Below are positions 2,531-33,927 of a stretch of 64,000 nt of DNA, in pieces. A program made the translations under genes and the position numbers. The stretch is from the NCBI RefSeq assembly GCF_000311785.1, contig NZ_HE978540.1:1-64000 (forward strand). Direction: 5' to 3'. Under the pieces are notes generated by a model. That model was not told the DNA's origin, did no database searches, and saw only the letters and a list, made by a program, of their open reading frames with translations. The DNA comes from Brevibacillus massiliensis. GTDB taxonomy: Bacteria > Bacillota > Bacilli > Brevibacillales > Brevibacillaceae. Every line of letters begins with the position of its first letter. Positions within the stretch are counted from its first letter, which is position 1.

Positions 2531-3280
2531 TCATCCGTTTGCCAATTCGGCAATGCGCCGGTTGGCGTCCCCCCGGTACAGTCCGCCGTGATAACAGATC
2601 ACCGCTTCGATGTCGTAGTGTGTGAGCTTCTTGAGTGATTGCACGGCCTGGTTGGCATCGACGCAGTATTGCGGTTCCGGTCCGAGCAGCTGGCCGTCTG
2701 CCACAATCATCGCATCCGCAGCGATCAGCGTCTTGCTCGGCCGGTGATACAAGCTGATATGTCCAGGCGTGTGTCCGGGTGTGCTGATGACGGTGATTCC
2801 ACCGCAGTACGGCAGCTCCTCTGCATCCCCTACCGTTCGATCCACGTCAGCCTTGGGCGGGTTTTCCAGCGTCCTCTTGAAGGCGGCACGCCACTCCTCC
2901 GGCACTTCCGGCGGCAAAGAGTTAACGGCTTGGGCTATCGCCTCCGGAGTGATTTTCAGCAGCCTTTTTTCGCCTTGGATAAACGGCTTCTCCACAGCGT
3001 GCGCCAGGACCTCCAGCTTTTGCGCTGATTCATGCAGGATCGTCGGCAGATTTCCGATATGGTCCAGGTCTTGATGGGTTATGATGAGTTTGGTAAGCTT
3101 TTCAAAAGGCATCCCGGCTCTCTCCATTTCTGCACGCAAGAGCGGAAGTTGGCCCGGATAAGCTGTATCCACCAAAATCATCTGATCTTCATCCCAGATC
3201 AGGGCAGGATATACCGTTTCCTTCCTCCCCATCATCGCTGCGGAAACCTCCAGCATTGCTAAACCTTTTGCAACTAGCAT
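2531..3280 (-). CDS. MBL-fold metallo-hydrolase
   Basis: A metallo-beta-lactamase-fold hydrolase of about 249 aa. Metal-binding features are THQDLDH (an HxDxDH signature), the STPGHTPGH segment, the DAMIV aspartate and a late YHGG histidine. The substrate is unknown; the family includes glyoxalase II-like thioesterases, lactonases and others. The open frame continues upstream to 3322, but the ATG at 3280 has a G-rich ribosome site (GGGGGG) 5 nt upstream and starts the family-like MLVAKGLAML segment, so I prefer it. Monocistronic by position: it converges with the kinase gene and is followed upstream by an AT-rich gap. Confidence 0.8.
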   Translation of the reverse strand: MLVAKGLAMLEVSAAMMGRKETVYPALIWDEDQMILVDTAYPGQLPLLRAEMERAGMPFEKLTKLIITHQDLDHIGNLPTILHESAQKLEVLAHAVEKPFIQGEKRLLKITPEAIAQAVNSLPPEVPEEWRAAFKRTLENPPKADVDRTVGDAEELPYCGGITVISTPGHTPGHISLYHRPSKTLIAADAMIVADGQLLGPEPQYCVDANQAVQSLKKLTHYDIEAVICYHGGLYRGDANRRIAELANG

Positions 3281-12566: not shown

Positions 12567-14339
12567 TTACGGTTGCACCGTGCGCGTCCTCGCCTGTCTT
12601 TCCGTCCAGACCAGCTCGCCGATGACAAACAGCAGCAGCAAGGCTTGGGGAATCACCGTTTCCAGGGATGGATAAAAACCAATCCATTCGGCAAACGGCA
12701 GGCCGCCAATCTGGTGAGCAGGCAGCAGATTCGTCACCTGCAGGACGTGGATGCTGACTCCCAGGATTTTGAAGGCAATGGCGTAGATCAAAATTGTGGC
12801 GCACGTGAAGAAAAATCGGATCGGCAGCTTGACACTGCAGAGAATCAGGATAAAGCCGATGACGAATAAGGCGGCCAGCGCACAGGCAATCCCGGTCAAC
12901 AGTTGGTGCAGGCTGATGGCTGGGGCCATTCCGGCGTAAAAGACGATGGTTTCCGCGCCTTCGCGAAAAATCGCAAAAAAGCTGACGGCCGCCATCGACC
13001 AAAGTCCCCCTTTGGCCATAGCCGATCCAAGCTGCCGATTGATGTATTGGTTCCAGTTTTGAATATTGGCCTTGCGATGCAGCCACACGCCGACCGTAAA
13101 CATCATCACGACCGCAACAATCCCGGTCAGGCCTTCGATGTATTCGCGGCTGGTACTGGCGGCTGCCTTGGAAAAATACATCGTGATGAACACGGCCAGC
13201 AGTGCGCTGCAGACGATGCCCAATCCGATCCCTGCCCAGATCCACTTTTGCTTGTCGGCCTGATTCGCTTTTTTCAAAAATGACAGCAATGCTGACACGA
13301 TCAGCAGGGCTTCCAGTCCTTCGCGGAGCAGCACGAGTGCCGCATCCCACGCTGTGTAGCTCTGATCGCCCTCCAGAAAAGGCGTTAATTTTTCTTTGAC
13401 TTCCCGGATGATTTTTTCCGTTCGCTCAATGTCGGGCTGCTTGGAGCCAAGCAAGCTGATCGACAGCGGGATTTGACTCTCGATTTGCGTGTATAAGCCG
13501 GCCGAGCGGGTCTGCACCTGCCCTTCGACCAGCGGCCAAATCGTCACGAATTGGTTCAGCTTCGCGATCGCTGTTTGCAGATCCTGCGACTGAATCGCCG
13601 CGTCCGCAGCCTTCAGCAGATCGACCAGGTCCTGCAGCGAAGCGTCCGCCTGCTCGTTCGCCTGATTTGCCTGTTTGCCGCCGCCTTGGAGGAAATGGTC
13701 CAGCGCCTGTTTTAAGGCGGCAAGACTTTCCAGCGCCTTTTGTTGATCGACAGGCTCTTGATTCAAAGCGATGCGGATGTACATCAGATTTTTTTCAATT
13801 TCGCCGTAGTCCGCTATGCTTGCCTGTTGGACAGCGGATTCCGCCTTCAGCCACTGGCTGTTGAACGACTTATAGTACGCTTTGGCCTGCGCCTGGTTTT
13901 GATTTTTGACCTCGTCGATCATCCGGTCGGCCAGCGGCAGCAGCTGCTTGACTTTTTCTTTGCCGTCGTCCTTTTTGCCGCCCTGCAGCGCAGCTTCATA
14001 CGCATTGGTCGCATGGGACAGCTGCGCAAGCGCTTCGTAGACCGAATTTTTGTCCCGGGGATTTTCTCCCATGACGTCTTGCACGCGGGCGAGGGCATCG
14101 TCTACTTGTTTTGCCTCCGGATTGTCCTGCTTGATTTGTTTCCAGCTGTCCTGAAACTTCTGCAAATCATCGAGAATGGGCTGCCAATTTTCGTCTTTCG
14201 ATTTTACCAACGCATCTCCGACGTGAACAAACAACTCATCGGTAGAGGGTGCGGCGGCAGCGGGCAGCGCGACGACGGCAACCAACAGCAGGACGAGGGC
14301 AAACAGGCCTAGCGGGCAAATCTTCTTTTTCATCTCCAT
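12567..14339 (-). CDS. efeU: EfeU-like FTR1-family iron permease with N-terminal extracytoplasmic domain
   Basis: A 590-aa iron permease of the ferrous EfeUOB system. It has a signal sequence, then about 300 residues of helical extracytoplasmic domain, then the seven-helix FTR1 permease. The two RExxE iron motifs are REGLEALLIVSALL and REGAETIVFYAGM. The long N-terminal domain is usual for Bacillus YwbL-type EfeU but absent from the enterobacterial form. It is the last gene of efeO-efeB-efeU, with 43 nt after efeB. Expression should be iron-repressed through the Fur box upstream of efeO. Confidence 0.9.
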   Translation of the reverse strand: MEMKKKICPLGLFALVLLLVAVVALPAAAAPSTDELFVHVGDALVKSKDENWQPILDDLQKFQDSWKQIKQDNPEAKQVDDALARVQDVMGENPRDKNSVYEALAQLSHATNAYEAALQGGKKDDGKEKVKQLLPLADRMIDEVKNQNQAQAKAYYKSFNSQWLKAESAVQQASIADYGEIEKNLMYIRIALNQEPVDQQKALESLAALKQALDHFLQGGGKQANQANEQADASLQDLVDLLKAADAAIQSQDLQTAIAKLNQFVTIWPLVEGQVQTRSAGLYTQIESQIPLSISLLGSKQPDIERTEKIIREVKEKLTPFLEGDQSYTAWDAALVLLREGLEALLIVSALLSFLKKANQADKQKWIWAGIGLGIVCSALLAVFITMYFSKAAASTSREYIEGLTGIVAVVMMFTVGVWLHRKANIQNWNQYINRQLGSAMAKGGLWSMAAVSFFAIFREGAETIVFYAGMAPAISLHQLLTGIACALAALFVIGFILILCSVKLPIRFFFTCATILIYAIAFKILGVSIHVLQVTNLLPAHQIGGLPFAEWIGFYPSLETVIPQALLLLFVIGELVWTERQARTRTVQP

Positions 14340-23188: not shown

Positions 23189-24343
23189 TTACGCATTCCA
23201 GCTGTATTTGTATTGTGTATCCTCGACCGCCTGCGCCTGTTTGACCACGCGCAGGGGACGGAAGGTATCGAGCATGACGGCCAGCTCCTGCGTCTCTTTT
23301 TTGCCGATGCTCGCTTCTACCTTGCCCGGGTGGGGCCCATGGGGAATTCCGCACGGATGAAGGGTAAGCGAGCCTTCGCTGATGCCCTTGCGGCTCATGA
23401 AATTCCCCTTCACATAGTAGAGCACCTCATCGCTGTCCACGTTGCTGTGGTAATAGGGAGTAGGGATCGCCTCCGGGTGGTAGTCGTACATACGCGGTAC
23501 GAACGAACAGATCACCAGATTGTTCGCCTCAAACGTCTGATGGATCGGCGGCGGCATGTGAATCCGTCCGGTAATCGGCTCAAAATCGCCAATATTAAAA
23601 ATCCACGGATAAAGGTAACCGTCCCAGCCCACGACGTCGAGCGGATGATGGTTGAACAAGTGGGAGTGCAGGAACCCTCTCGACTTGGTGCGAACCTCGT
23701 ACTCCCCTTGGTCCGTGTGGGTCTCCAGCACTTCCGGCCCGCGAATATCGCGTTCACAGAAAGGGCTGTGTTCCAGAAGCTGTCCGTGATGATTCCGGTA
23801 GCGCTTGGGAGTGGTAATCCAGCTCGTCGTTTCGATCACGAGAAACTTCGCTTCCCCCGGGTCCGGCACGATCCGGTAGATCGTCCCCACCGGCATGACG
23901 ATGTAATCCCCGGGCTGGTAGCGCAAGGTCCCGAACATCGTCTCCGCCCTGCCTGTTCCGGCATGGACAAACAACACCTCGTCACCGTCGCTGTTGCGGT
24001 AAAAATAGTCCATCTGCCGGACAGGCTGGGCCACGGCGATCTGCACGTCATCATTGCCGAGCAAATACTGCCTGCCTTCGACAGCATCCCCTGGCTCCGC
24101 ATATTGATGGGTAAAAAAGTGCCGGTGGCAAAGATCGGCCTGCTCTTCATAGGCTAACCGGCAGTCCTTGAGCAGCGCTGAGTGCACGATCCTGGTCGGC
24201 GGGTTGTGATGATACAGGATCGATTGGATGCCGGAAAAACCTTTCGTGCCCATGACTTGTTCCCGATACAAAGAGCCGTCCTGCTTGCGGAAAATCGTAT
24301 GCCGCTTCCGCGGGATTTCCCCCATCTGACGATAAAATGGCAT
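23189..24343 (-). CDS. hmgA: Homogentisate 1,2-dioxygenase
   Basis: A 384-aa non-haem iron dioxygenase that opens the homogentisate ring to maleylacetoacetate. Visible are the cupin blocks HHPLDVVGWDGYLYPW, YYHSNVDSDEVLYYVKGNF (iron His and Glu) and LHPCGIPHGPHPG (iron His). It is of the shorter Gram-positive type. Start ATG at 24343 follows GGAGGAGG at 7 nt; the open frame further upstream overlaps fahA and is not used. Last gene of the catabolic cluster, 20 nt after fahA. Confidence 0.93.
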   Translation of the reverse strand: MPFYRQMGEIPRKRHTIFRKQDGSLYREQVMGTKGFSGIQSILYHHNPPTRIVHSALLKDCRLAYEEQADLCHRHFFTHQYAEPGDAVEGRQYLLGNDDVQIAVAQPVRQMDYFYRNSDGDEVLFVHAGTGRAETMFGTLRYQPGDYIVMPVGTIYRIVPDPGEAKFLVIETTSWITTPKRYRNHHGQLLEHSPFCERDIRGPEVLETHTDQGEYEVRTKSRGFLHSHLFNHHPLDVVGWDGYLYPWIFNIGDFEPITGRIHMPPPIHQTFEANNLVICSFVPRMYDYHPEAIPTPYYHSNVDSDEVLYYVKGNFMSRKGISEGSLTLHPCGIPHGPHPGKVEASIGKKETQELAVMLDTFRPLRVVKQAQAVEDTQYKYSWNA

Positions 24344-24363
24344 GTTGAAGCCCTCCTCCGTGC

Positions 24364-25632
24364 TTAATTCTCGCTTCGCGCCGGCAGTACCCGGCCCGTT
24401 ACGCTGCCAAATCCAATGCGGTAGCCATCGCCCTGGCACCATCCGCTCATCGTCACCCTGTCGCCATCCTCCAGCCAGACGCGCTGCTGCCCATCTCCCA
24501 GCTGAAGCGGCTCGGCGCCGCGCCAGGTAAGCTCCAGCAGGCAGCCCCGCGATGTTTTTTCCGCGCCGCTGATCGTTCCCGAAGCCAAGAGGTCGCCCGG
24601 GCGCAGGTTGCACCCCCCGACGGTGTGGTGGGCGATCTGCTGTGCCATGCTCCAATAGAGGTAGCGGAAGTTGCTCGTGCAGATCTGCTGCGGTTCGGCC
24701 ATCTCGGCGCCCTGAAGCTCCACGGCCAGTTGGATGTCAAACGCGCCTGCCCCTGTTTGCCGCAAATAAGGCAGCGGCTCGGGATCCTGGTGCGGCCCTT
24801 GGACGCGAAACGGCTCCAATGCCTCGAGCGGCACCACCCAGGGGGAGATCGACGTCGCGAAGTTCTTGGCGAGAAACGGGCCGAGCGGCTGGTACTCCCA
24901 CGCCTGGATATCTCTTGCGCTCCAGTCATTGACGAGCACGAGCCCAAAGATGTGCTCCTCGGCACGATCGATCGGGATCGGTTCGCCCGGTTCATTGCCC
25001 GGGCCGATCAGCCAGCCGATCTCCAACTCAAAATCAAGCTGGCGGCACGGCCCGAAGATCGGGCGCGCTTCATCCGGCCGCTTCATCTGTCCCAGCGGCC
25101 GGCGCACATCCGTGCCGCTCACCACGACGGAACTGGCCCGGCCGTGGTAGCCGACAGGCAGATTCACCCAGTTTGGCATCAGCGCGTTCTCTTTGCCGCG
25201 AAACATGATGCCGACATTTGTCGCGTGGTCCTTGGAAGCATAGAAGTCCGTATAGTCGCCAATTTCCGCAGGCAGGAGCATCTCCACCTCGCTCTGCAGG
25301 CGGAAGGCTTCAGCCCGCAGCGTATCGTTGTCGCGCAAGGCGGGTTCCTGCTCGCTGAGCAGCCGCTGAATCTTCGCCCGTGCCTCCCGCCAGACAGAGC
25401 GCCCCAAAGCCATGAAGGCGTTGAGCGAAGATTGCGCGAACACCGCTCTGCCCCTGAGGGACGTGTCTTCAAAAAAACCGGCCCGCTCCAGTACGGAAAG
25501 ATCAAGCACGCAGTCGCCGATCGCGACGCCGACGCGGGGAGTGCCGCCGCTCTTCGGCCGAAACACCCCGTAAGGCAAGTTTTGAATGGGAAAGTGGGAA
25601 TCCGCCGCTACCTCGATAAATGAACGCTCCAC
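24364..25632 (-). CDS. fahA: Fumarylacetoacetase
   Basis: A 422-aa hydrolase that splits fumarylacetoacetate to fumarate and acetoacetate. Conserved are LPYGVFRP at the N-terminus, [16 protein letters not shown] (metal and catalytic His), [22 protein letters not shown] (metal glutamates), [17 protein letters not shown] and [12 protein letters not shown]. The start is GTG at 25632, 6 nt after GGAGGAGGAG; the frame upstream overlaps the next gene. It lies 16 nt after the unknown 320-aa protein gene and 20 nt before hmgA. Confidence 0.94.
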
Positions 25633-25648
25633 TGTTCTCCTCCTCCTT

Positions 25649-26611
25649 CTATAAGATATGCAAGGCTCGCAAATCGTCACGCGGCTCGTCAAAGCTGCAG
25701 GTGCCGTAGGAACGCAGCAGTGCGCCGCGCAGCCGGGCGATGGCGGGGGCGGAGAGCGATAGATCCCGCCAGGCCAATCCATCGGCGGTAAAGGAGAAGC
25801 TGGCGGAATCTTCGTCGGCGAGGATTTGCTCGATCAGCTCCTCCCCCGCATTCCGCTCATGGGCCAGCATCCCGGCCGTAAACACATTGACAAAGCCGTG
25901 CATGCGGGTCTCCACTTCAGACCGATACATCCGGATCGGATGGTGCAGCCCGGCGGTAAATTTCAACGGAATCCGGCGGTCGCGGCAGCCCGCAAGGACG
26001 AATGCCAGCTCAGCCGGCGAGGGAAAGGCAGCAGCGTGCAGGCCGCCGGTCCGAAACTTGAGGCCGATGGTCATGATTTTGCCCTCGCTGGCGTTGTACG
26101 CAGCGATCGCATCCAGGGCGACCGTCATCTGCCGCCTCCAGTCCGGAGAAAAAGGGTATGCGGCTTCGCAAAACAGCTCCATCCCCTGCCGCTGTACCTC
26201 TGCCGCAATCGCCTCCAACAGCCCGTTTGCGGGAGGGGCAGCCGAGGGAAGCGGCAGTTCCAGAACGCCGATGTCTGCGATATCCGCGTACCGCTCGCAA
26301 AAGTCTTGAATCTGCGTCAGGTCTGCACGCAGTCCCGCAAGGCATTCCGCCTCATCTTCACTCTTCCGCCCCAAGGCGGCACAGCTCAAAGGATGATCCT
26401 CCGAAAACAGCGACAGATGCGGTTCCAGCTCGTTCAACCGCGCAGCCGGGACGACAAAGCGCCCCAGCATCCAGGCGTCATCGCTCCTTTGGTAAGCGGC
26501 ATAACGGCGGACCGACTCCGCGAGCGGCAGGCTGGCGGGCGGAAACAGCCCCGCGTAATCGAACAGACCTTCCAAAAACGCGCCTACACTGCCTATATTC
26601 ACTTCTCTCAC
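25649..26611 (-). CDS. Protein of unknown function linked to homogentisate genes
   Basis: A 320-aa cytosolic protein that I cannot assign. It begins [19 protein letters not shown] and continues with a [18 protein letters not shown] block. Later blocks are [18 protein letters not shown] and [12 protein letters not shown]. Alternating strand and helix with a KFTAGLHHP motif suggest an alpha/beta barrel, which is an inference. The ATG overlaps the stop of the flavin reductase gene by 4 nt, and fahA follows at 16 nt, so it is within the operon. Since no GST-type maleylacetoacetate isomerase or HPPD is seen nearby, this protein is a candidate for a missing step. Confidence 0.75.
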
Positions 26612-27150
26612 TCCTTTCGCTTGAGTTCTTGTTGCATGTGTATGAGTTCGGCTGCCAAATTCTTCATGCGCTTCTCTACGTCCTCGTCGATGATTTTATT
26701 TTCCCTGTTGAAATGATCCGTGTGGGCGTACACATAGCTGGGAGCGACAAAGGCGCGGAAGTAACCGGCGATCGGCTTTGCCTGGTTTTCGATGACCAGA
26801 TAGTGCTGATAGGTTCCACCGTTGGCCGCAAAGCCCATCACTTTGTGGCGAAACACGGAAGGGGGAACCAGATCAAACACGTTTTTTAAAGGAGCCGGGA
26901 TGGACCCGTTAAAGACTGGAAAGCCGATCAGATAAAAATCCGCTTCCGTAATCTCGGCGATCACCCTCCTGGTGTCGTCGTTGTAGTGAGCGGGATCTCT
27001 GCCATCGCAAAACTGAAGCTCGCAGCCGCGCAGATCCAGCAGGCGCACTTCGACGTCAGGGGCGATTTGCCGAACCTCTTTCAGGATCTGCTCTACCAGG
27101 CTCGCGGTTTTTGCCCCCAGGATGGTGCCGGAAATCCCCAGCAGCTTCAT
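26608..27150 (-). CDS. NAD(P)H-dependent FMN reductase
   Basis: A 180-aa flavodoxin-like reductase of the NADPH-dependent FMN reductase family. The FMN phosphate loop is at the N-terminus (GISGTILGAKTASLV), followed by FPVFNGSIPAPLKN and GFAANGG. It would supply reduced flavin to the luciferase-like monooxygenase encoded 22 nt upstream in the same operon, a common two-component arrangement. Substrate specificity cannot be read directly. Confidence 0.85.
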   Translation of the reverse strand: MKLLGISGTILGAKTASLVEQILKEVRQIAPDVEVRLLDLRGCELQFCDGRDPAHYNDDTRRVIAEITEADFYLIGFPVFNGSIPAPLKNVFDLVPPSVFRHKVMGFAANGGTYQHYLVIENQAKPIAGYFRAFVAPSYVYAHTDHFNRENKIIDEDVEKRMKNLAAELIHMQQELKRKE

Positions 27151-27172
27151 ACTCCATCACTCCTTTTGCGGT

Positions 27173-28189
27173 TTAGCGGACCGATTCTTCCTTGGCCTGT
27201 TCCCGAAAAGCGGGCATCACTTCGCGGGCAACCAGTTCCATGGACTTCAGCACCTGTTCATGGGGCAGCCCGCCGAAGTTCATCAACATCATGATATGAT
27301 CGCAGCCGACTTCTTTATATTTTTTCAACCTGCCGATGACATCTTCGGGCGTGCCGATCAGCAGCTGCTCGCGGGCCTCCAGATCTTCATACTGAGCCCC
27401 TTTCCCGTATTGGCGGGTTTCCAGGTACAAATTTACATGGGGTTTGGCGATTCGCTCCGCCGCTTCTCTCGTCTCCGCTACAAACGTATGCAGGGCGAGC
27501 GGAGTATTTATCTTTCGCTCGTCATGTCCCGCCTCCAGATACGCCCTCCGGTAATCGCTGATGACCTGGCGCAACTCCTCGATGCTGTTGCCGGAAACGT
27601 AGGGCACACCCATGATGTTGTAGCCCATCTTCCCGACGTACTGGGCTCCCTGGGAACGCAGGGCGCCGATCCAGAGCGGGACCTGCTTCTGTTCGGGGAT
27701 GACTTGCAGCTTTATATCGGTAAACTGGTAGTACTCTCCGTGATGCGAGAATGTCTCCCCTGTCCAGGCTTTTTCGATCACGGCCAGGGCATCGTTGAAG
27801 CGGAAGGCCTTGTCTTTGCCGTCGACGTTAAATCCGGCGAATTCATGAGGCAGGTAGCCGCTTCCCAGCCCCAGATTCAAGCGCCCGCCACTCAGCACGT
27901 CCAACAAGGCGTAGTCCTCGGCCACCTGAATCGGATTGTGAAAAACCAGAGATACGATCGACACGCCCAGCCGGATCCTTTTTGTCCGCTCGGCTGCAGC
28001 CGTCAGCAGGATATGCGGCGAAGTCAGGATGCCATACTCGCTAAAATGGTGTTCCGCAAACCAGACGGATTCGTATCCGAGCCGGTCGGCCTCCACAGTC
28101 TGCTCCAGTACCTCCTGCAGCAGCTTGGCGGGCGTGCGGTCAAACTTCGCTTGGTAGTTGTCAAATACGGTAAACAGTCCAAATTTCAT
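27173..28189 (-). CDS. LLM-class flavin-dependent monooxygenase
   Basis: A 338-aa luciferase-like monooxygenase with the expected TIM-barrel blocks: WFAEHHFSEYG near the N-terminus, RIRLGVSIVSLVFHNPIQVAED, LDVLSGGRLNLGLGSGY and LWIGALRS. Such enzymes use FMNH2 from a partner reductase to oxygenate small molecules. Start ATG at 28189 follows GAGGAGG at 8 nt; the open frame to 28255 runs into attenuator A. Its expression should depend on read-through of that element. In this cluster it may prepare an aromatic substrate for ring cleavage, which is inference. Confidence 0.85.
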   Translation of the reverse strand: MKFGLFTVFDNYQAKFDRTPAKLLQEVLEQTVEADRLGYESVWFAEHHFSEYGILTSPHILLTAAAERTKRIRLGVSIVSLVFHNPIQVAEDYALLDVLSGGRLNLGLGSGYLPHEFAGFNVDGKDKAFRFNDALAVIEKAWTGETFSHHGEYYQFTDIKLQVIPEQKQVPLWIGALRSQGAQYVGKMGYNIMGVPYVSGNSIEELRQVISDYRRAYLEAGHDERKINTPLALHTFVAETREAAERIAKPHVNLYLETRQYGKGAQYEDLEAREQLLIGTPEDVIGRLKKYKEVGCDHIMMLMNFGGLPHEQVLKSMELVAREVMPAFREQAKEESVR

Positions 28190-28241
28190 CGCGTTGTCCT
28201 CCTCGTTTTCAAGAAAATGAATTTTATTTCCAAAAAGGAAA

Positions 28242-28338
28242 AACCAGCGCGCCAAATGGCCAAGCAGGCTCTTTGAGCGGCTGGTTGATACCTACTACCT
28301 GAGAAGAAGGAGCGCTTCTCCCCCGTAGATAACTCAGC
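28242..28338 (-). promoter_or_regulatory. Attenuator/riboswitch-like element A
   Basis: Read on the minus strand: GCTG (28338-28335) and GTT (28333-28331), then ATCTAC, a GGGG run, a GAGAAG/CTTCTC hairpin, AGGTA, GTAGGTATC, AACCAGC (28286-28280), a spacer, and GCTGGTT (28248-28242) ending in a T run. AACCAGC can pair with upstream GCTG-A-GTT as an extended closing stem, or with downstream GCTGGTT as a terminator. Element B has the same parts in the same order. It lies between the first DUF3870 gene and the monooxygenase gene. No known riboswitch consensus matched. Confidence 0.65.
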
Positions 28339-28344
28339 AGGGAA

Positions 28345-28656
28345 TTATTTCATTTCGCAATAGCGATCATAGGCTTGCTGCAGCGCATAGATGATCGCGC
28401 CCTGGCCGGGGACCAGCATGGTCGCTCTCAGTTTCTCTTTTGCTTCGCCAAGGCCATTCTTGATGCTCATCCCTCGCAGTTGATGACTGACAAACTCGTT
28501 CGTCTTGTCCATCACGAAGGAAAAGGATATATCCTCGATAATTTCTTCGTCGCGGTTAATTACCATGACACAGCCAACCAGTTTGTACACTTCGTACATC
28601 GTGGTCCCTTTCGACACCTCCGCAAAGCCGGCAACCAGTACGGTGTTTTTGCCCAA
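28345..28656 (-). CDS. DUF3870 domain protein (copy 1)
   Basis: A 103-aa protein of the DUF3870 family, function unknown. Shared with copy 2 (33598-33927): VLVAGFA, KGTTMYEV, VGCVMVINRD, a SFSFVMDKTNEFV block and a C-terminal RYCEM. Start is TTG at 28656 with GGGGG about 10 nt upstream. It lies 18 nt after the fused Liv ATPase gene and 7 nt before element A. The small size, two copies and their fixed position next to similar leader elements suggest a regulatory, perhaps RNA-binding role; that is inference. Confidence 0.8.
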   Translation of the reverse strand: MGKNTVLVAGFAEVSKGTTMYEVYKLVGCVMVINRDEEIIEDISFSFVMDKTNEFVSHQLRGMSIKNGLGEAKEKLRATMLVPGQGAIIYALQQAYDRYCEMK

Positions 28657-28674: not shown

Positions 28675-30195
28675 TTAGTGTCCGCTTAAATAGGCCGCCC
28701 GGATTCGATCGTCGTGCATCAGTTGATCAGGATTGCCTGCGATTTTGATCCTGCCGTTTTCCAAGACGTAAGCGAAGTCAGCGATTCTCATGGCCGCCCG
28801 CGCATTCTGTTCTACGAGAAGAATGTTCATTCCCATCTGTTTGAGCTGGTACAGCTTGTCGAAGATTTCCTCGACAATCATCGGAGCGAGACCTAAAGAC
28901 GGTTCATCGAGCATCAGTACTTCCGGATGCGACATCAGTCCCCGGGCGATCGCCAGCATCTGCTGTTCGCCTCCGCTCAGGGTGCCGGACAGCTGCTTGC
29001 GCCTTTCCTTCAGCACCGGGAACATCTGATACATCTTTTCCAGGTCTTCGAAAACCTGCTGCCGGCCATGCCTGCTGCAGTAGGCTCCAAGGCGCAAGCT
29101 TTCCTCCACGGTGAGCTCCGGGAACATCCCCCTGCGCTCGGGGACGAGGTTGATCCCCTGACGGGCCAGCTGCTCCGCCGGGATGCCGGTAATGTCCCGC
29201 TCCCGGAATGTGACTTTTCCCGCCCTGGCCGGATACAGCCCGGCGATCGTTCCGAGCAGCGTCGACTTCCCTGCCCCATTGGCCCCGATGATAACGGCAA
29301 GTTCTCCTTTGTACAGACGGAGCGAAACTCCCTTGAGGGCGTGAATGTCGCCGCGGCAGGCGTGCAGATCGGCTGCTTGCAGGACGGGCGGCTCCTGTTC
29401 GGTGCGGCTTTTTCTCGCGTATTCCCGCTGGACATCGCGGCCGAGGTAGGCCTCGATGACGCGTTCGTCCCGGCTGATTTCCTCCGGAGTTCCCTCTGCT
29501 ATTTTGCTGCCAAACTCAAGGACGATGATCTTGTCGGACACCTCCATGACGGTAGCGAGATCGTGTTCGATCAGGAAGATGCTGAGCCCTTCGGCCTTCA
29601 AACGCCTGATCAGCCGGGCCATCCCCGCCACTTCTTCGCGGCTCATCCCGGCCATCGGTTCATCGAGAAGCAGCAGCTTCGGCTCCAGAGCCAAGGCGCG
29701 GGCCACCTCCAGCAGGCGCTGTTCGCCAAAGGACAAATCCTTGGCAGGGTGATCTGCCAGATGAGCCAGGCCGACCAAAGCGAGTTTTTCCATGGCAGCC
29801 CTTTTTGCTTCCGTCTCCGCCTTTTGCACGGAAGCAAACCTGAGCATCGACGGGAGCAGGCTGGGGTTTCGCGTCTTGGGCAAAGCGACCATGACATTCT
29901 CAATGACTGTTAGATTATGGAAGATTTGCAGGTTTTGAAACGTCCTGGCAATCCCCAGCGCAGCGATCTGATGGGGCTTCATGTTGTCGATTTTCCGGCC
30001 GAGGAACCGCACCTCTCCCGCATCGGGCGTGTACATCCCGGTAATGCAGTTAAACGTGGAGGTTTTCCCTGCGCCATTCGGCCCGATGAGAGAAACGACC
30101 CGGCCGGGCTCTACCTGAAAAGAATTGTCGTTGACCGCCACCACGCCGCCAAAGCGCTTGGTTACCCGTTCAAATTCAAGCAGACAAGTGCTCAC
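28675..30195 (-). CDS. Fused LivG-LivF-type ABC transporter ATPase
   Basis: A 506-aa protein with two complete ABC ATPase domains in one chain. The first (residues about 1-240) is LivG-like: Walker A GPNGAGKTS, signature LSFGEQ, Walker B LLLLDEPMAG. The second (about 270-506) is LivF-like: GANGAGKST, signature LSGGEQQ, Walker B VLMLDEPSLGL. In most organisms these are separate genes. It energises the transporter with the two permeases upstream. The ATG overlaps the LivM stop by 4 nt. A linker of about 25 residues (RKSRTEQEPP) joins the halves. Confidence 0.92.
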   Translation of the reverse strand: MSTCLLEFERVTKRFGGVVAVNDNSFQVEPGRVVSLIGPNGAGKTSTFNCITGMYTPDAGEVRFLGRKIDNMKPHQIAALGIARTFQNLQIFHNLTVIENVMVALPKTRNPSLLPSMLRFASVQKAETEAKRAAMEKLALVGLAHLADHPAKDLSFGEQRLLEVARALALEPKLLLLDEPMAGMSREEVAGMARLIRRLKAEGLSIFLIEHDLATVMEVSDKIIVLEFGSKIAEGTPEEISRDERVIEAYLGRDVQREYARKSRTEQEPPVLQAADLHACRGDIHALKGVSLRLYKGELAVIIGANGAGKSTLLGTIAGLYPARAGKVTFRERDITGIPAEQLARQGINLVPERRGMFPELTVEESLRLGAYCSRHGRQQVFEDLEKMYQMFPVLKERRKQLSGTLSGGEQQMLAIARGLMSHPEVLMLDEPSLGLAPMIVEEIFDKLYQLKQMGMNILLVEQNARAAMRIADFAYVLENGRIKIAGNPDQLMHDDRIRAAYLSGH

Positions 30196-31217
30196 AGGGT
30201 TTCACCTCTCCGTCTGGCCTTTGCACTGCGGAAGATGCCGATGATCCCGTTCGGCATGTAAATCATCATCAGCACCAGCAGCAATCCAAAGAAGATGACT
30301 TCGATCGAGCCGCCGGAGGTGGCTTGGCCGATCAACAGTGGAACGTACTCTCTGAGCAGTTCGACCAACAGCGTGACGACCAGCACGCCCACCATCGCTC
30401 CCCAGACGGATACCAGCCCGCCCAAGACGGCCATCACCACAAACTTGATCGACATGTCGAAATTGAACACCGCCGGGCTGACAAACCCCATGTAACAGGC
30501 GTAAAGACCTCCGCTCAAACCGGCGAACATCCCGCTTATCACAAAAGCCTGCAGACGGTACCGGCCGGTATCAATCCCCATCGCTTCCGAAGCGGCCTGA
30601 CTGGCGTGCATCGAACGAAGGTTTCTGCCCCAACCGGACTTGACCAGGTTGCTGCACAAGATCAGACAGACGATGGCCACGATCCACACGAGGGCAAACC
30701 AGGCGGCATCACCCGAAACCTGGAGCGGACCTGCCTGCAGGGCGGGAATTCCGATCAATCCGGAAGATCCGCCCGTCCACTCCGTCTCCTCGATCAGGAC
30801 AATGTTGACGACGATGCCAAAGCCGAGAGTGGCCAGCGAAAAATAGTGTCCCCGCAAATTTCTTGTGATCAGCCCCAAGCCGAAAGCGATCAAGCCGGAT
30901 ACGATCACCGCCAGCGGAATGCCCAGCCAGGGGGAAATTCCCAGATGGACGGCTCCTGTGCCCGTGACGTAGGCGCCGATGCCCCAAAAGGCTGCTCCGG
31001 CCAGCGAAACCAGGCCGGCAAACCCCATCAACAGCGTAATCCCGACCGTCGTGATGCAGTACAATCCCATGATCACGAACACACTGGTCAGATAGCTGCC
31101 AAGCAGGAGCGGCCCTGCGAACAGGACCGGCAGCAGCAGGAGCAGCCAAAGCCACGCCCGGCTTCTGATGCGCATGGGATGGGTCGGTTTTGTCTGTTCC
31201 AGCATTTTTTCCATCAT
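30192..31217 (-). CDS. Branched-chain amino-acid-type ABC permease (LivM family)
   Basis: A 341-aa permease with about nine hydrophobic segments and LivM-family blocks such as LRGHYFSLATLGFGIVVN and GGLYACYMGF. It pairs with the LivH-type permease encoded 12 nt upstream. Liv-type systems carry branched-chain amino acids, but many also carry aromatic acids, amides or urea. The linkage to homogentisate genes favours an aromatic substrate here. Confidence 0.9.
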   Translation of the reverse strand: MMEKMLEQTKPTHPMRIRSRAWLWLLLLLPVLFAGPLLLGSYLTSVFVIMGLYCITTVGITLLMGFAGLVSLAGAAFWGIGAYVTGTGAVHLGISPWLGIPLAVIVSGLIAFGLGLITRNLRGHYFSLATLGFGIVVNIVLIEETEWTGGSSGLIGIPALQAGPLQVSGDAAWFALVWIVAIVCLILCSNLVKSGWGRNLRSMHASQAASEAMGIDTGRYRLQAFVISGMFAGLSGGLYACYMGFVSPAVFNFDMSIKFVVMAVLGGLVSVWGAMVGVLVVTLLVELLREYVPLLIGQATSGGSIEVIFFGLLLVLMMIYMPNGIIGIFRSAKARRRGETL

Positions 31218-31229
31218 GGCCCACCTCTC

Positions 31230-32105
31230 TTACACCCGTTTCCCGCTTCTTGCGCCAAGGATCCCCTGCGGTCTGAAGATGAGCACCAAGAGCAGGATCA
31301 GAAAGGCGATTGCATCCTTGTATCCGGATGAGACCAACCCTGCTCCGAGCGACTCCAGGACGCCGAGCAGCACGCCGCCCGCGACAGCCCCCGGAATGCT
31401 GACCAAGCCTCCCAGCACCGCCGCGACAAATCCCTTCAAACCAATCATCAGGCCCATGTCATAGGTAGCCAGCGAGACCGGGGCGACCGACACGCCGACT
31501 GCCCCGGCCAGTCCCGCCCCCAGGACAAAGGACAAGAGGGCCATCCGATTCGGAGAAATCCCCATCAGCCGGCTTACCTCCCGGTTCATCATGCAGGCCC
31601 TGAGCGCCGAACCCATCGCCGTCCGCTCGAAGAAAACAAACAGCGCCAGCATACAGATCAGGGCGATCCCTCCGATAAAGAAATCCTGCAGGGGAATGAC
31701 CGCCCCGAGGAAGCTGACCGGCTCTCCCGCCATGAACGGCGGAATGGTCAAGGGACTGCTTCCCCACAGCAGTTGTGCAAGTCCCCGCAGTGTCGTAGAC
31801 AGCCCGATCGTGATGATGATCAGTACGACATCGCTGCTGTACCTGGCAGGGTACAGGGCCAGCCGCCACGCGACGGCCCCGACCGCCGCCGAGACGAGAA
31901 TCGCGGCAATGCAGGCAATCCACAGCGGTGCTCCGGCGGAAGTCATGGCAGCCCCCGACATGGCGGCCACCATGACAAACTCTCCCTGGGCAAAGTTGAT
32001 CACGCCGTTGACGTTGTAGATCGTGACAAATCCCACGGCAATCAGCGCGTAGATTCCGCCTACGGTCAGGCCGGAAAACAACAATTGGACCAAATCTGAA
32101 CTCAT
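31230..32105 (-). CDS. Branched-chain amino-acid-type ABC permease (LivH family)
   Basis: A 291-aa permease with about eight helices. Family blocks: GGIYALIAVGFVTIYNVNGVINFAQGE is split here as GIYALIAVGFVTIYNV then NFAQGEFVM, and later GLKGFVAAVLGGLVSIPGA. It lies 15 nt after the substrate-binding protein gene and 12 nt before livM in one operon. Confidence 0.9.
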   Translation of the reverse strand: MSSDLVQLLFSGLTVGGIYALIAVGFVTIYNVNGVINFAQGEFVMVAAMSGAAMTSAGAPLWIACIAAILVSAAVGAVAWRLALYPARYSSDVVLIIITIGLSTTLRGLAQLLWGSSPLTIPPFMAGEPVSFLGAVIPLQDFFIGGIALICMLALFVFFERTAMGSALRACMMNREVSRLMGISPNRMALLSFVLGAGLAGAVGVSVAPVSLATYDMGLMIGLKGFVAAVLGGLVSIPGAVAGGVLLGVLESLGAGLVSSGYKDAIAFLILLLVLIFRPQGILGARSGKRV

Positions 32106-32120
32106 CCTACCTTCTCCTCG

Positions 32121-33368
32121 CTATTGCGCCTTTACCCAGCGGCCGCCTTTTACCTGCAGAATGATCACATCCTCCGGCTTCAGGCCCTGATGATCGTCCG
32201 GGCTGAGATTGAAGACGCCTGTCGTGCCGACCAGGTTTTGAATCTTCTCCATGTTTTCCCGGATCGTCTCCCGGTTTACCTGGTCTCCCGCCATCTCGAT
32301 CGCTTTGGCCAAGAGCAGCATCGTATCGTAGGCCATCCCGTCGATCGGGCTGACACCCGTCTTAAACTTCGATTCAAAATCCTTGACGTACTTCGTGATC
32401 AGCTCCTTTTGCGGATCGCTGTCTGCCAGCTGATCGGCCACCCACACTTTTCCGGAAGCGATGTACGTTCCTTCCGCTGCCTCGGGACCCGCCAGTTCCA
32501 CAAATGCGTTGGATCCGGCACCGGCACTGTAGATCAGCATGGAATCCAGCTTCAACTCCCAGAAATTGCGGTTTACGATCGAGGCGGAAGGCGGTATCGC
32601 CCAGACGACCACGGCGTCCGGATTTTTTGATTTGATCGTGGTAAGCTGCGGCTTCATATCCTTGTCTCCGCCGCCGAATTTCTCCGTCGCCACGATGTTG
32701 AGCCCGTATTCCTTCGCCACCGTTTCAAACGACTTTCTGCCGTCTTCCCCGTAGGCGTTGTTCATCGCCATAAAAGCGACATTGGTCTTCCCCTTCTCTT
32801 TCAAAAACGCGGCGATGCTGTTGGAGATGTCGTTGTTGTTGCTCGGCGTCTTAAAGATATACGGGCGCTCACTCGCCGGCTCCACGATCCCGTCCCCGGA
32901 ACCGACGGACACCAGCGTTACCTTCTGTTGATTCATGTACGGCACGATCGGCATCGTCGTCGGAGTCGTCCCTCCGCCGATCACGGCCAATACCTTGTCC
33001 TGCTCCACCAGCTTCTTCGTCACCACGAGAGATTGTGTTTCACTAGACTCATTGTCATAGACGACCAGCTCAATGGGGACGCCGTTAATGCCGCCTTTCT
33101 GGTTCAACTCCTCCACCAGCATTTCCACCGCATTCTTCTGCGGCACGCCCCATACCGAGGCACCTCCCGTCAGCTCCAGATTGATCCCGATCTTATAGCT
33201 GGCGGGCTTCTCTGTTTTTCCGGCAGCTCCGGAGCCGGAGCCGCTTTCCCCGGCTCCCCCGGCCGCCGCTCCGCCTGAGCCGGCCTGAGTGCCGGAGCAA
33301 GCCGCCAAGCTGAACGTCAGAAAAAATACCATGAGTACCGCCAAAGCAAAGCGCATTCTTTTCAACAC
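32121..33368 (-). CDS. ABC transporter substrate-binding lipoprotein (LivJ-like)
   Basis: A 415-aa periplasmic-binding-fold type I lipoprotein. It has a signal peptide with the lipobox LAACSG, a Gly/Ser/Ala-rich linker, then the receptor domain starting YKIGINLELTGGASVWG, with VIGGGTTPTTMPIVPYMNQ and GMAYDTMLLLAKAIE. GTG at 33368, TTG at 33365 and ATG at 33356 are candidate starts after a G6 site. The ligand is unknown; context suggests an aromatic compound. Its mRNA leader contains element B. Confidence 0.9.
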   Translation of the reverse strand: MLKRMRFALAVLMVFFLTFSLAACSGTQAGSGGAAAGGAGESGSGSGAAGKTEKPASYKIGINLELTGGASVWGVPQKNAVEMLVEELNQKGGINGVPIELVVYDNESSETQSLVVTKKLVEQDKVLAVIGGGTTPTTMPIVPYMNQQKVTLVSVGSGDGIVEPASERPYIFKTPSNNNDISNSIAAFLKEKGKTNVAFMAMNNAYGEDGRKSFETVAKEYGLNIVATEKFGGGDKDMKPQLTTIKSKNPDAVVVWAIPPSASIVNRNFWELKLDSMLIYSAGAGSNAFVELAGPEAAEGTYIASGKVWVADQLADSDPQKELITKYVKDFESKFKTGVSPIDGMAYDTMLLLAKAIEMAGDQVNRETIRENMEKIQNLVGTTGVFNLSPDDHQGLKPEDVIILQVKGGRWVKAQ

Positions 33369-33399
33369 AATCCCCCCATTTTTGTTTTGAAAATGAAAA

Positions 33400-33532
33400 A
33401 ACCAGCAGAACAGAAGAGAAGAAGCAAGAACATGCCAAAAAGGCCGTTCGCTTTCCTGTCTTCCATCCCGCTGGTTGTTTATCTACTTCACCCAGGTCGG
33501 GCTCATGTCCCTTCCTGCATAGATAATCCAGC
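33400..33532 (-). promoter_or_regulatory. Attenuator/riboswitch-like element B
   Basis: Minus strand: GCTGG (33532-33528), A, TTATCTA (33526-33520), then an inner domain with nested CAGG/CCTG and GGG/CCC pairing, TAGATAA (33485-33479), AACCAGC (33476-33470), a 63-nt spacer, and GCTGGTT (33406-33400) with TTTTC. TTATCTA pairs perfectly with TAGATAA. CCAGC can pair with the upstream GCTGG (antiterminator) or, as AACCAGC, with GCTGGTT (terminator). The element lies in the 5' leader of the substrate-binding protein gene, about 20 nt after the predicted transcription start. Confidence 0.7.
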
Positions 33533-33551
33533 CAAACTATTCACGCTTATG

Positions 33552-33581
33552 ATTATATTACAAAAAGTATGATTATTGCAA
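33552..33581 (-). promoter_or_regulatory. Sigma-A-type promoter of the transport-catabolic operon
   Basis: On the minus strand TTGCAA (33581-33576) and TATAAT (33557-33552) are 18 bp apart. Transcription would start near 33545, just ahead of element B. Confidence 0.7.
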
Positions 33582-33592
33582 GCGCTTTTACA
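33577..33592 (-). promoter_or_regulatory. Catabolite-responsive element (cre) for CcpA
   Basis: TGTAAAAGCGCTTGCA on the minus strand closely fits the cre consensus TGAAANCGNTTNCA-type pattern. It overlaps the -35 box, so CcpA binding should repress the operon when a preferred carbon source is present. Confidence 0.65.
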
Positions 33593-33597
33593 AGTGA

Positions 33598-33927
33598 TCA
33601 ATATTTGACCATCTCGCAATACCGTTCATGCGCGACCCGCAGGGACTGAATGATGGCACGCTGCGCCGGGGCCAGGAAGCGCTCCTCAATCTCCCGGACG
33701 ATCTCGTCCACCCCATGCCGCACCGATTTCCCCCTCACCAGCGAACAGATAAATTCATTCGTGACCTCCATGATAAAGGTAAAAGAAACATCCAGGATCA
33801 GATCGGTATCCCTGTCAATGATCAAGACACAGCCAACCGTTTTCTGCACTTCATAAAGTGTCGTGCCTTTTGGGAGTTGGGCAAATCCAGCCACGAGAAC
33901 ACAACGCGGGTTGTCTTTCCAGTCCAT
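33598..33927 (-). CDS. DUF3870 domain protein (copy 2)
   Basis: A 109-aa paralogue of the protein at 28345-28656, with VLVAGFAQLPKGTTLYEVQ, VGCVLIIDRD, FTFIMEVTNEF and a C-terminal RYCEMVKY. Start ATG at 33927 has an AAGGGA site about 9 nt upstream. It is the first gene of the cluster. Its stop codon lies 6 nt before the cre site, so it may be on a separate transcript from the genes behind the internal promoter. Function unknown; see element B. Confidence 0.8.
   Translation of the reverse strand: MDWKDNPRCVLVAGFAQLPKGTTLYEVQKTVGCVLIIDRDTDLILDVSFTFIMEVTNEFICSLVRGKSVRHGVDEIVREIEERFLAPAQRAIIQSLRVAHERYCEMVKY

Follow-up and report, generated by a model that had tools for sequence, protein, structure and literature searches.

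A 64,000-nucleotide stretch of the Brevibacillus massiliensis genome (contig NZ_HE978540.1; hereafter the window) contains two similar leader elements, A and B, each just behind a gene of the DUF3870 family. This raises the question of what element B does in the leader of a Liv-type transporter operon and to which factor it responds.

Competing folds of elements A and B

Read on the minus strand from 33532 to 33400, element B has the layout GCTGG-a-TTATCTAT-[apical hairpins]-GTAGATAA-acaa-CCAGC-spacer-GCTGGTTTTTT. All parts that the initial annotation named were found where it had placed them, and their order is the same in A and B (Table 1). In the nascent B RNA, a two-part stem consisting of P1 (GCUGG/CCAGC) and P2 (UUAUCUAU/GUAGAUAA) encloses an apical hairpin, whereas the complete leader forms a strong terminator instead, into which the 3' strand of P1 is recruited. 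When the RNA is cut just past P1', the minimum free energy structure is the P1-P2-hairpin fold in A (-20.2 kcal/mol) as well as in B (-24.7 kcal/mol), while the complete leaders of both fold as terminators, and the terminator is computed to be the more stable of the two competing folds. The full B leader has a z value of -5.2 relative to shuffled sequences, mainly because of the terminator. According to these models, the antiterminator and terminator folds of the B leader are mutually exclusive. The attenuation switch proposed in the initial annotation, with GCTGG..CCAGC excluding AACCAGC..GCTGGTT, has the support of folding, covariation and dozens of homologues.

Table 1. Coordinates of the two elements and neighboring features in the window
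Feature	Position	Strand	Remarks
Element B, antiterminator and terminator	33400-33532	-	Leader of Liv-type transporter operon; folding, covariation, covariance-model match
B P1 5' strand, GCTGG	33528-33532	-	Partner strand 33470-33474
B P2 5' strand, TTATCTAT	33519-33526	-	Partner strand 33479-33486
B apical domain	33493-33517	-	CAGG/CCTG and GGG/CCC stems, loop ACATGAG
B P2 3' strand, GTAGATAA	33479-33486	-	
B switching strand, AACCAGC	33470-33476	-	P1 3' strand in antiterminator; 5' arm in terminator
B terminator 3' arm and U run	33396-33406	-	GCTGGTT 33406-33400; T run 33401-33396
Promoter of B	33552-33581	-	TTGCAA-18-TATAAT
cre-like palindrome, TGTAAAAGCGCTTGCA	33577-33592	-	Overlaps -35; seen by eye
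DUF3870 gene just upstream of B	33598-33927	-	PF12986 E=5.9e-23; AF2 model pLDDT 94
Operon under B	28675-33368	-	Whole transporter operon, Liv-type
LivK-type binding protein, operon under B	32121-33368	-	
Two permeases, operon under B	30192-32105	-	
Fused double ABC ATPase, operon under B	28675-30195	-	
Second DUF3870 gene, just upstream of A	28345-28656	-	PF12986 E=1.2e-15
Element A, antiterminator and terminator	28235-28338	-	R2 match 45.8 bits
A P1, GCTG/CAGC	28338-28335/28283-28280	-	
A P2, TATCTAC/GTAGGTA	28331-28325/28295-28289	-	
A terminator arms	28286-28280/28248-28242	-	
Operon under A	23189-28198	-	Luciferase-like monooxygenase, FMN reductase, unmatched ORF, fumarylacetoacetase, homogentisate-1,2-dioxygenase-like

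The promoter proposed for B is borne out, but it places the transcription start about 13 nt before P1 rather than about 20 nt upstream. The TGTAAAAGCGCTTGCA palindrome is, judged by its sequence, a possible CcpA site. As annotated, a DUF3870 gene lies upstream of each element, and both window proteins fall in the family (PF12986) with 81.4 and 58.0 bits against a gathering score of 22.

Covariance models R1 and R2 match B at 33469-33533 with 71.3 and 65.6 bits, and a model built from B and nine relatives recovers A in a search of the window (E = 9e-4). The only other match in the window, at 13852-13928, is weaker and lies within a coding ORF, and it was rejected. The differences between A and B had been read as compensatory. 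However, pair-by-pair comparison of P2 reveals one-sided changes only (U-A to U-G and U-G to C-G), and no compensatory change can be read from these two copies by themselves; double changes exist across relatives.

Two further DUF3870 genes are present in the genome beyond the window pair. A third copy of the element, on another contig, follows a DUF3870 gene, reads GCTG-c-TTTATTTAT-hairpin-GTAAATAAA-acc-CAGC plus a terminator, and precedes a BPD_transp_1 (oligopeptide-type) permease; it has the skeleton of B and a different P2 sequence. The DUF3870 copy L002 (G000:C12:99171-99452), of the GHARLPQGMAA subtype, closes an acyl-CoA-dehydrogenase-like operon, and a plain terminator with no element adjoins it. 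In the operon under A, the homogentisate-1,2-dioxygenase-like (HgmA-like) gene matches TIGR01266 (E = 1e-194). A 320-aa ORF between the FMN reductase and fumarylacetoacetase genes (25649-26611, minus strand) is without a Pfam or NCBIfam match, and genome G480 carries a homologue of it at the same position.

Conserved pairing and element types among relatives

DUF3870 loci were taken from 39 genomes of the family (39/39 positive), from 398 genomes of the phylum (55 positive) and from 80 named records (Brevibacillus, Aneurinibacillus, Siminovitchia, Neobacillus, Peribacillus, Sporosarcina, others and one Desulfarculales MAG), with some species doubled across two of the collections (e.g., L140 = G016 and L144 = G539). 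In these loci the skeleton P1-P2-apical-P2'-P1', with P1' within the terminator, recurs in several unrelated sequences: the B type (CTGG-TTATCTAC), the O type (GCTGC-TTTATTTAT) before peptide-type permease genes, the C type (GGTT-a-TAATAA) before CoA transferases, and the G type (GGCC-at-TTATCTGC). In a crude scan of the terminators that follow DUF3870 genes, 35 of 138 carried a nested antiterminator; the background was 1.9% for shuffled sequences and 2.9% for the remaining terminators of these loci. Because the regex/stem scanner overlooks true cases and admits some false ones (e.g., L026 and L061), no single locus is claimed on its evidence alone.

The alignment of 10 B-type relatives (MAFFT, RNAalifold) contains P1, P2 and two apical stems, with double changes in 10 of 19 pairs, including several apical pairs. 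Among 40 covariance-model matches (34 distinct), in an alignment fitted to the covariance model, 97% of the cells of 13 pairs are paired and 8 of the 13 pairs show double changes. The B-type covariation score is 0.325, compared with 0.189 for shuffled alignments and 0.05-0.17 for slid registers, and exceeds every one of the 500 shuffles and every slid register. The O type, which has different sequences (MAFFT alignment), is 100% paired, with double changes in 5 of 12 pairs and a score of 0.230 vs. 0.131. These alignments indicate that P1 and P2 are both kept among relatives via true double changes. The initial annotation held that a lack of conserved pairing in relatives would speak against the element; the pairing is conserved. 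No Rfam 15 covariance model matches the window or 20 homologous loci at gathering score, and a loose threshold yielded only chance miRNA matches, which were discarded. Element B is real and belongs to a family of antiterminator RNAs not described before.

Several relatives show other arrangements. In Aneurinibacillus danicus (L144:1739-2001, the same as G539:C132:14009-14271), a B-type and an A-type element stand in tandem before a luciferase-like monooxygenase, accompanied by promoter-like and cre-like sequence, whereas in the window the transporter operon lies between the two types, as does the second DUF3870 gene. Genome G480 has two 62-nt elements of identical sequence, separated by about 2.7 kb (L268:271-332 and 2983-3044), the second before a monooxygenase-hgmA operon, and a third, different element behind the DUF3870 gene at 13750. 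In the Desulfarculales MAG, a second B-type element in a non-Bacillota genome (L176:5144-5203) precedes an acyl-CoA-ligase-like gene, which suggests horizontal spread or a mis-binned contig. An element in a Sporosarcina MAG (L167:2920-2984) precedes a RibF-like flavin kinase gene, a placement consistent with flavin supply for a flavin monooxygenase under the same control.

Association of the elements with DUF3870

Model R2 under strict filters returned only its own genome from the 398 phylum genomes and is too insensitive alone, so a class survey was used instead. Of 300 genomes in the class, 89 carry DUF3870. The B-type element is present in 31 of the 300, all 31 with DUF3870, and is absent from all 211 class genomes without it (hypergeometric P = 6e-19; 5e-6 when the family is excluded; phylogeny not taken into account). 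In the eight B-type genomes outside the family, the element lies 0.1 to 13 kb from the DUF3870 gene on the same contig. The O-type element occurs in 20 of the 300 genomes, every time directly behind a DUF3870 gene. Element classes sort by DUF3870 subfamily, taking 21 changes on the DUF3870 tree vs. 59.5 when shuffled. By a crude classifier, 70 of 134 tree rows have a DUF3870 gene without a recognizable element alongside; elements acting in trans explain some of the element-less genes in Brevibacillus and leave others unexplained. Elements also stand apart from the gene: ahead of livK in operons where DUF3870 comes only at the far end, ahead of the monooxygenase in the Aneurinibacillus tandem, and ahead of the RibF-like gene in Sporosarcina. 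The first two cases indicate that the element is kept and not just the neighborhood. The genome-level tie could come from a shared pathway and not from binding.

Model R2 finds the element in 34 of the 39 family genomes. Most Brevibacillus carry a single orphan B-type element, far from DUF3870, in the leader of an FAA-hydrolase/hgmA/flavin-reductase operon, and their DUF3870 of the matching subtype ('GFAQ.PKGT'; assigned by sequence, bit-score range and tree) is located elsewhere with no element of its own. Two genomes overlooked by the whole-genome filter carry the element at the hgmA operon (29.6 and 27.4 bits). G032 and G033 have hgmA and lack the matching subtype; no element precedes the operon, and the upstream gene ends 47-57 nt ahead of it. 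G038 has neither hgmA nor the subtype nor the element. The element is therefore present in 36/36 genomes with the subtype and in 0/3 without it (Fisher 1e-4, relatedness uncorrected).

In the Brevibacillus homogentisate leaders (L237-L248), a AAGCGTTTTCG-like cre motif lies about 100 nt before each element, beside a TATGAT -10. By eye, the AAGCGTTTTCG motif before these orphan elements resembles the TGTAAAAGCGCTTGCA palindrome at B. On the strength of such motifs, catabolite repression is likely added to antitermination at the Brevibacillus homogentisate leader.

The B, O, C and G types have one skeleton with little else alike in sequence, and they sort with the DUF3870 subfamily and not with one metabolite. 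This is difficult to reconcile with a metabolite riboswitch, in which the apical domain and P2 bind an aromatic or acidic catabolite directly and DUF3870 is a pathway protein merely travelling along, even though the leaders are located ahead of transport and catabolic genes, the element is retained where DUF3870 is not adjacent, and the apical domain of the B subtype carries a conserved, GGRACATGARCC-like motif, conceivably a ligand pocket. The zero count in class genomes without DUF3870, the missing element before hgmA where the subtype is missing, and the lack of an Rfam match also argue against it. Subfamily-specific sequences on one skeleton, the restriction to DUF3870 genomes and the unlinked elements make protein binding the likelier reading, and the small-molecule riboswitch implied by the initial annotation, although the main rival, is unlikely.

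DUF3870 as a putative antiterminator

The best explanation, and a likely one from the sequence comparisons, is that element B is a DUF3870-dependent antiterminator; we infer RNA binding by DUF3870, a positive sign of control and a ligand. While RNA polymerase transcribes the leader, the P1-P2-apical hairpin would form first. Unaided, P1-P2 would be displaced by the longer terminator that reuses AACCAGC, and the operon would be off. DUF3870, responding to a compound linked to the operon substrate, would bind P1-P2, including its asymmetric internal loops on the 3' side, and stabilize it; the terminator could then not form and the transporter genes would be read. Each DUF3870 paralogue would recognize its own element class, usually from a gene directly upstream (cf. 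hutP before the hut terminator), and trans action would be possible. The genes downstream of DUF3870 and the elements belong mostly to acid and CoA-ester catabolism or uptake; a tally among 68 gives luciferase-like monooxygenase (12), CoA transferase (8), FAA hydrolase (4), permeases (4), 3-hydroxyacyl-CoA dehydrogenase (3) and others. The signal for the B subfamily is probably either an aromatic acid or an intermediate in homogentisate-type catabolism.

The AF2 model of DUF3870 (pLDDT 94.3) consists of three strands plus helices. Searches of the PDB by sequence profile and by fold gave nothing significant (best fold match IscU, E=0.015), so the PDB provides no RNA-binding precedent for DUF3870. 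A partial match to RSC8 in a single-sequence search (E=0.002) was judged spurious. When 46 DUF3870 proteins were compared with Pfam at E<=1, HutP, CAT_RBD and ANTAR were absent among the 25 families listed, and a HutP chain was absent among the top 50 fold matches listed. A literature search found no work on the function of DUF3870 (PF12986), the name of which occurs, incidentally, in one paper.

A DUF3870 antiterminator is best explained as analogous, but unrelated, to the HutP, BglG/LicT and ANTAR systems. The hutP gene lies just before the terminator under HutP control, and the HutP target comprises two clusters of three NAG triplets. In the B. subtilis hut operon, HutP is a small ligand-responsive protein that prevents a terminator, and its hexamer binds NAG-triplet clusters in the terminator sequence (PMC7430163; PMC8934654). 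The proposed DUF3870 antiterminator would likewise be small and ligand-responsive, with its gene just before the terminator. However, the conserved feature here is a structured two-helix antiterminator, and DUF3870 shows no HutP similarity among the Pfam families (E<=1) and fold matches listed. The RAT of the BglG-type systems is about 30 nt long with a consensus unlike the present element. In BglG, SacY, LicT and GlcT systems, the protein stabilizes the RAT, a hairpin that contains asymmetric internal loops and shares nucleotides with the 5' arm of the terminator (PMC8934654; PMC7430163). The B hairpin resembles it in logic only, also overlapping the terminator 5' arm, and the CAT RNA-binding and PRD domains of those regulators are both missing among the Pfam families listed for DUF3870. 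ANTAR antiterminators such as EutV stabilize an RNA that excludes the terminator, with one protein serving several leaders (PMC8934654), as proposed for DUF3870, but the ANTAR RNA is a dual hexaloop whereas the present one is a nested long stem, and DUF3870 has no ANTAR domain match among the families listed.

DUF3870 might also bind and repress, by promoting the terminator or blocking translation until a ligand relieves it, since the sign of control is not readable from sequence and the terminator is the more stable fold. Such repression is quite improbable, because covariation conserves the antiterminator P1-P2, the structure that a positive factor would bind, and because a regulator gene placed ahead of the terminator recalls the gene order at hutP. 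A passive attenuator, in which the folds compete without a trans-acting factor and give fixed read-through from the small upstream gene to the operon, would suit the thermodynamic competition of the two folds and the position of element A between co-directional genes, but it is very hard to credit, as B keeps the element despite its own promoter and as the double changes in P2 and the apical domain and the tight DUF3870 linkage would be unexpected.

If true, DUF3870-dependent antitermination would give a function to DUF3870, which is present in 89/300 class and 55/398 phylum genomes, enlarge the small set of known protein-controlled antiterminators by one family, and establish an RNA family that Rfam lacks. 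The same mechanism would also predict regulons for homogentisate/aromatic compounds, peptide-type uptake and CoA transferase, and provide paralogous protein-RNA pairs for the study of recognition specificity. DUF3870 may well represent a widespread and hitherto unrecognized class of antitermination proteins that bind RNA and have a fold and an RNA element family of their own. In that reading, the paralogues within one cell would each sense a different carboxylate or CoA-linked substrate and activate transporter genes and catabolic operons, in some cases in trans.
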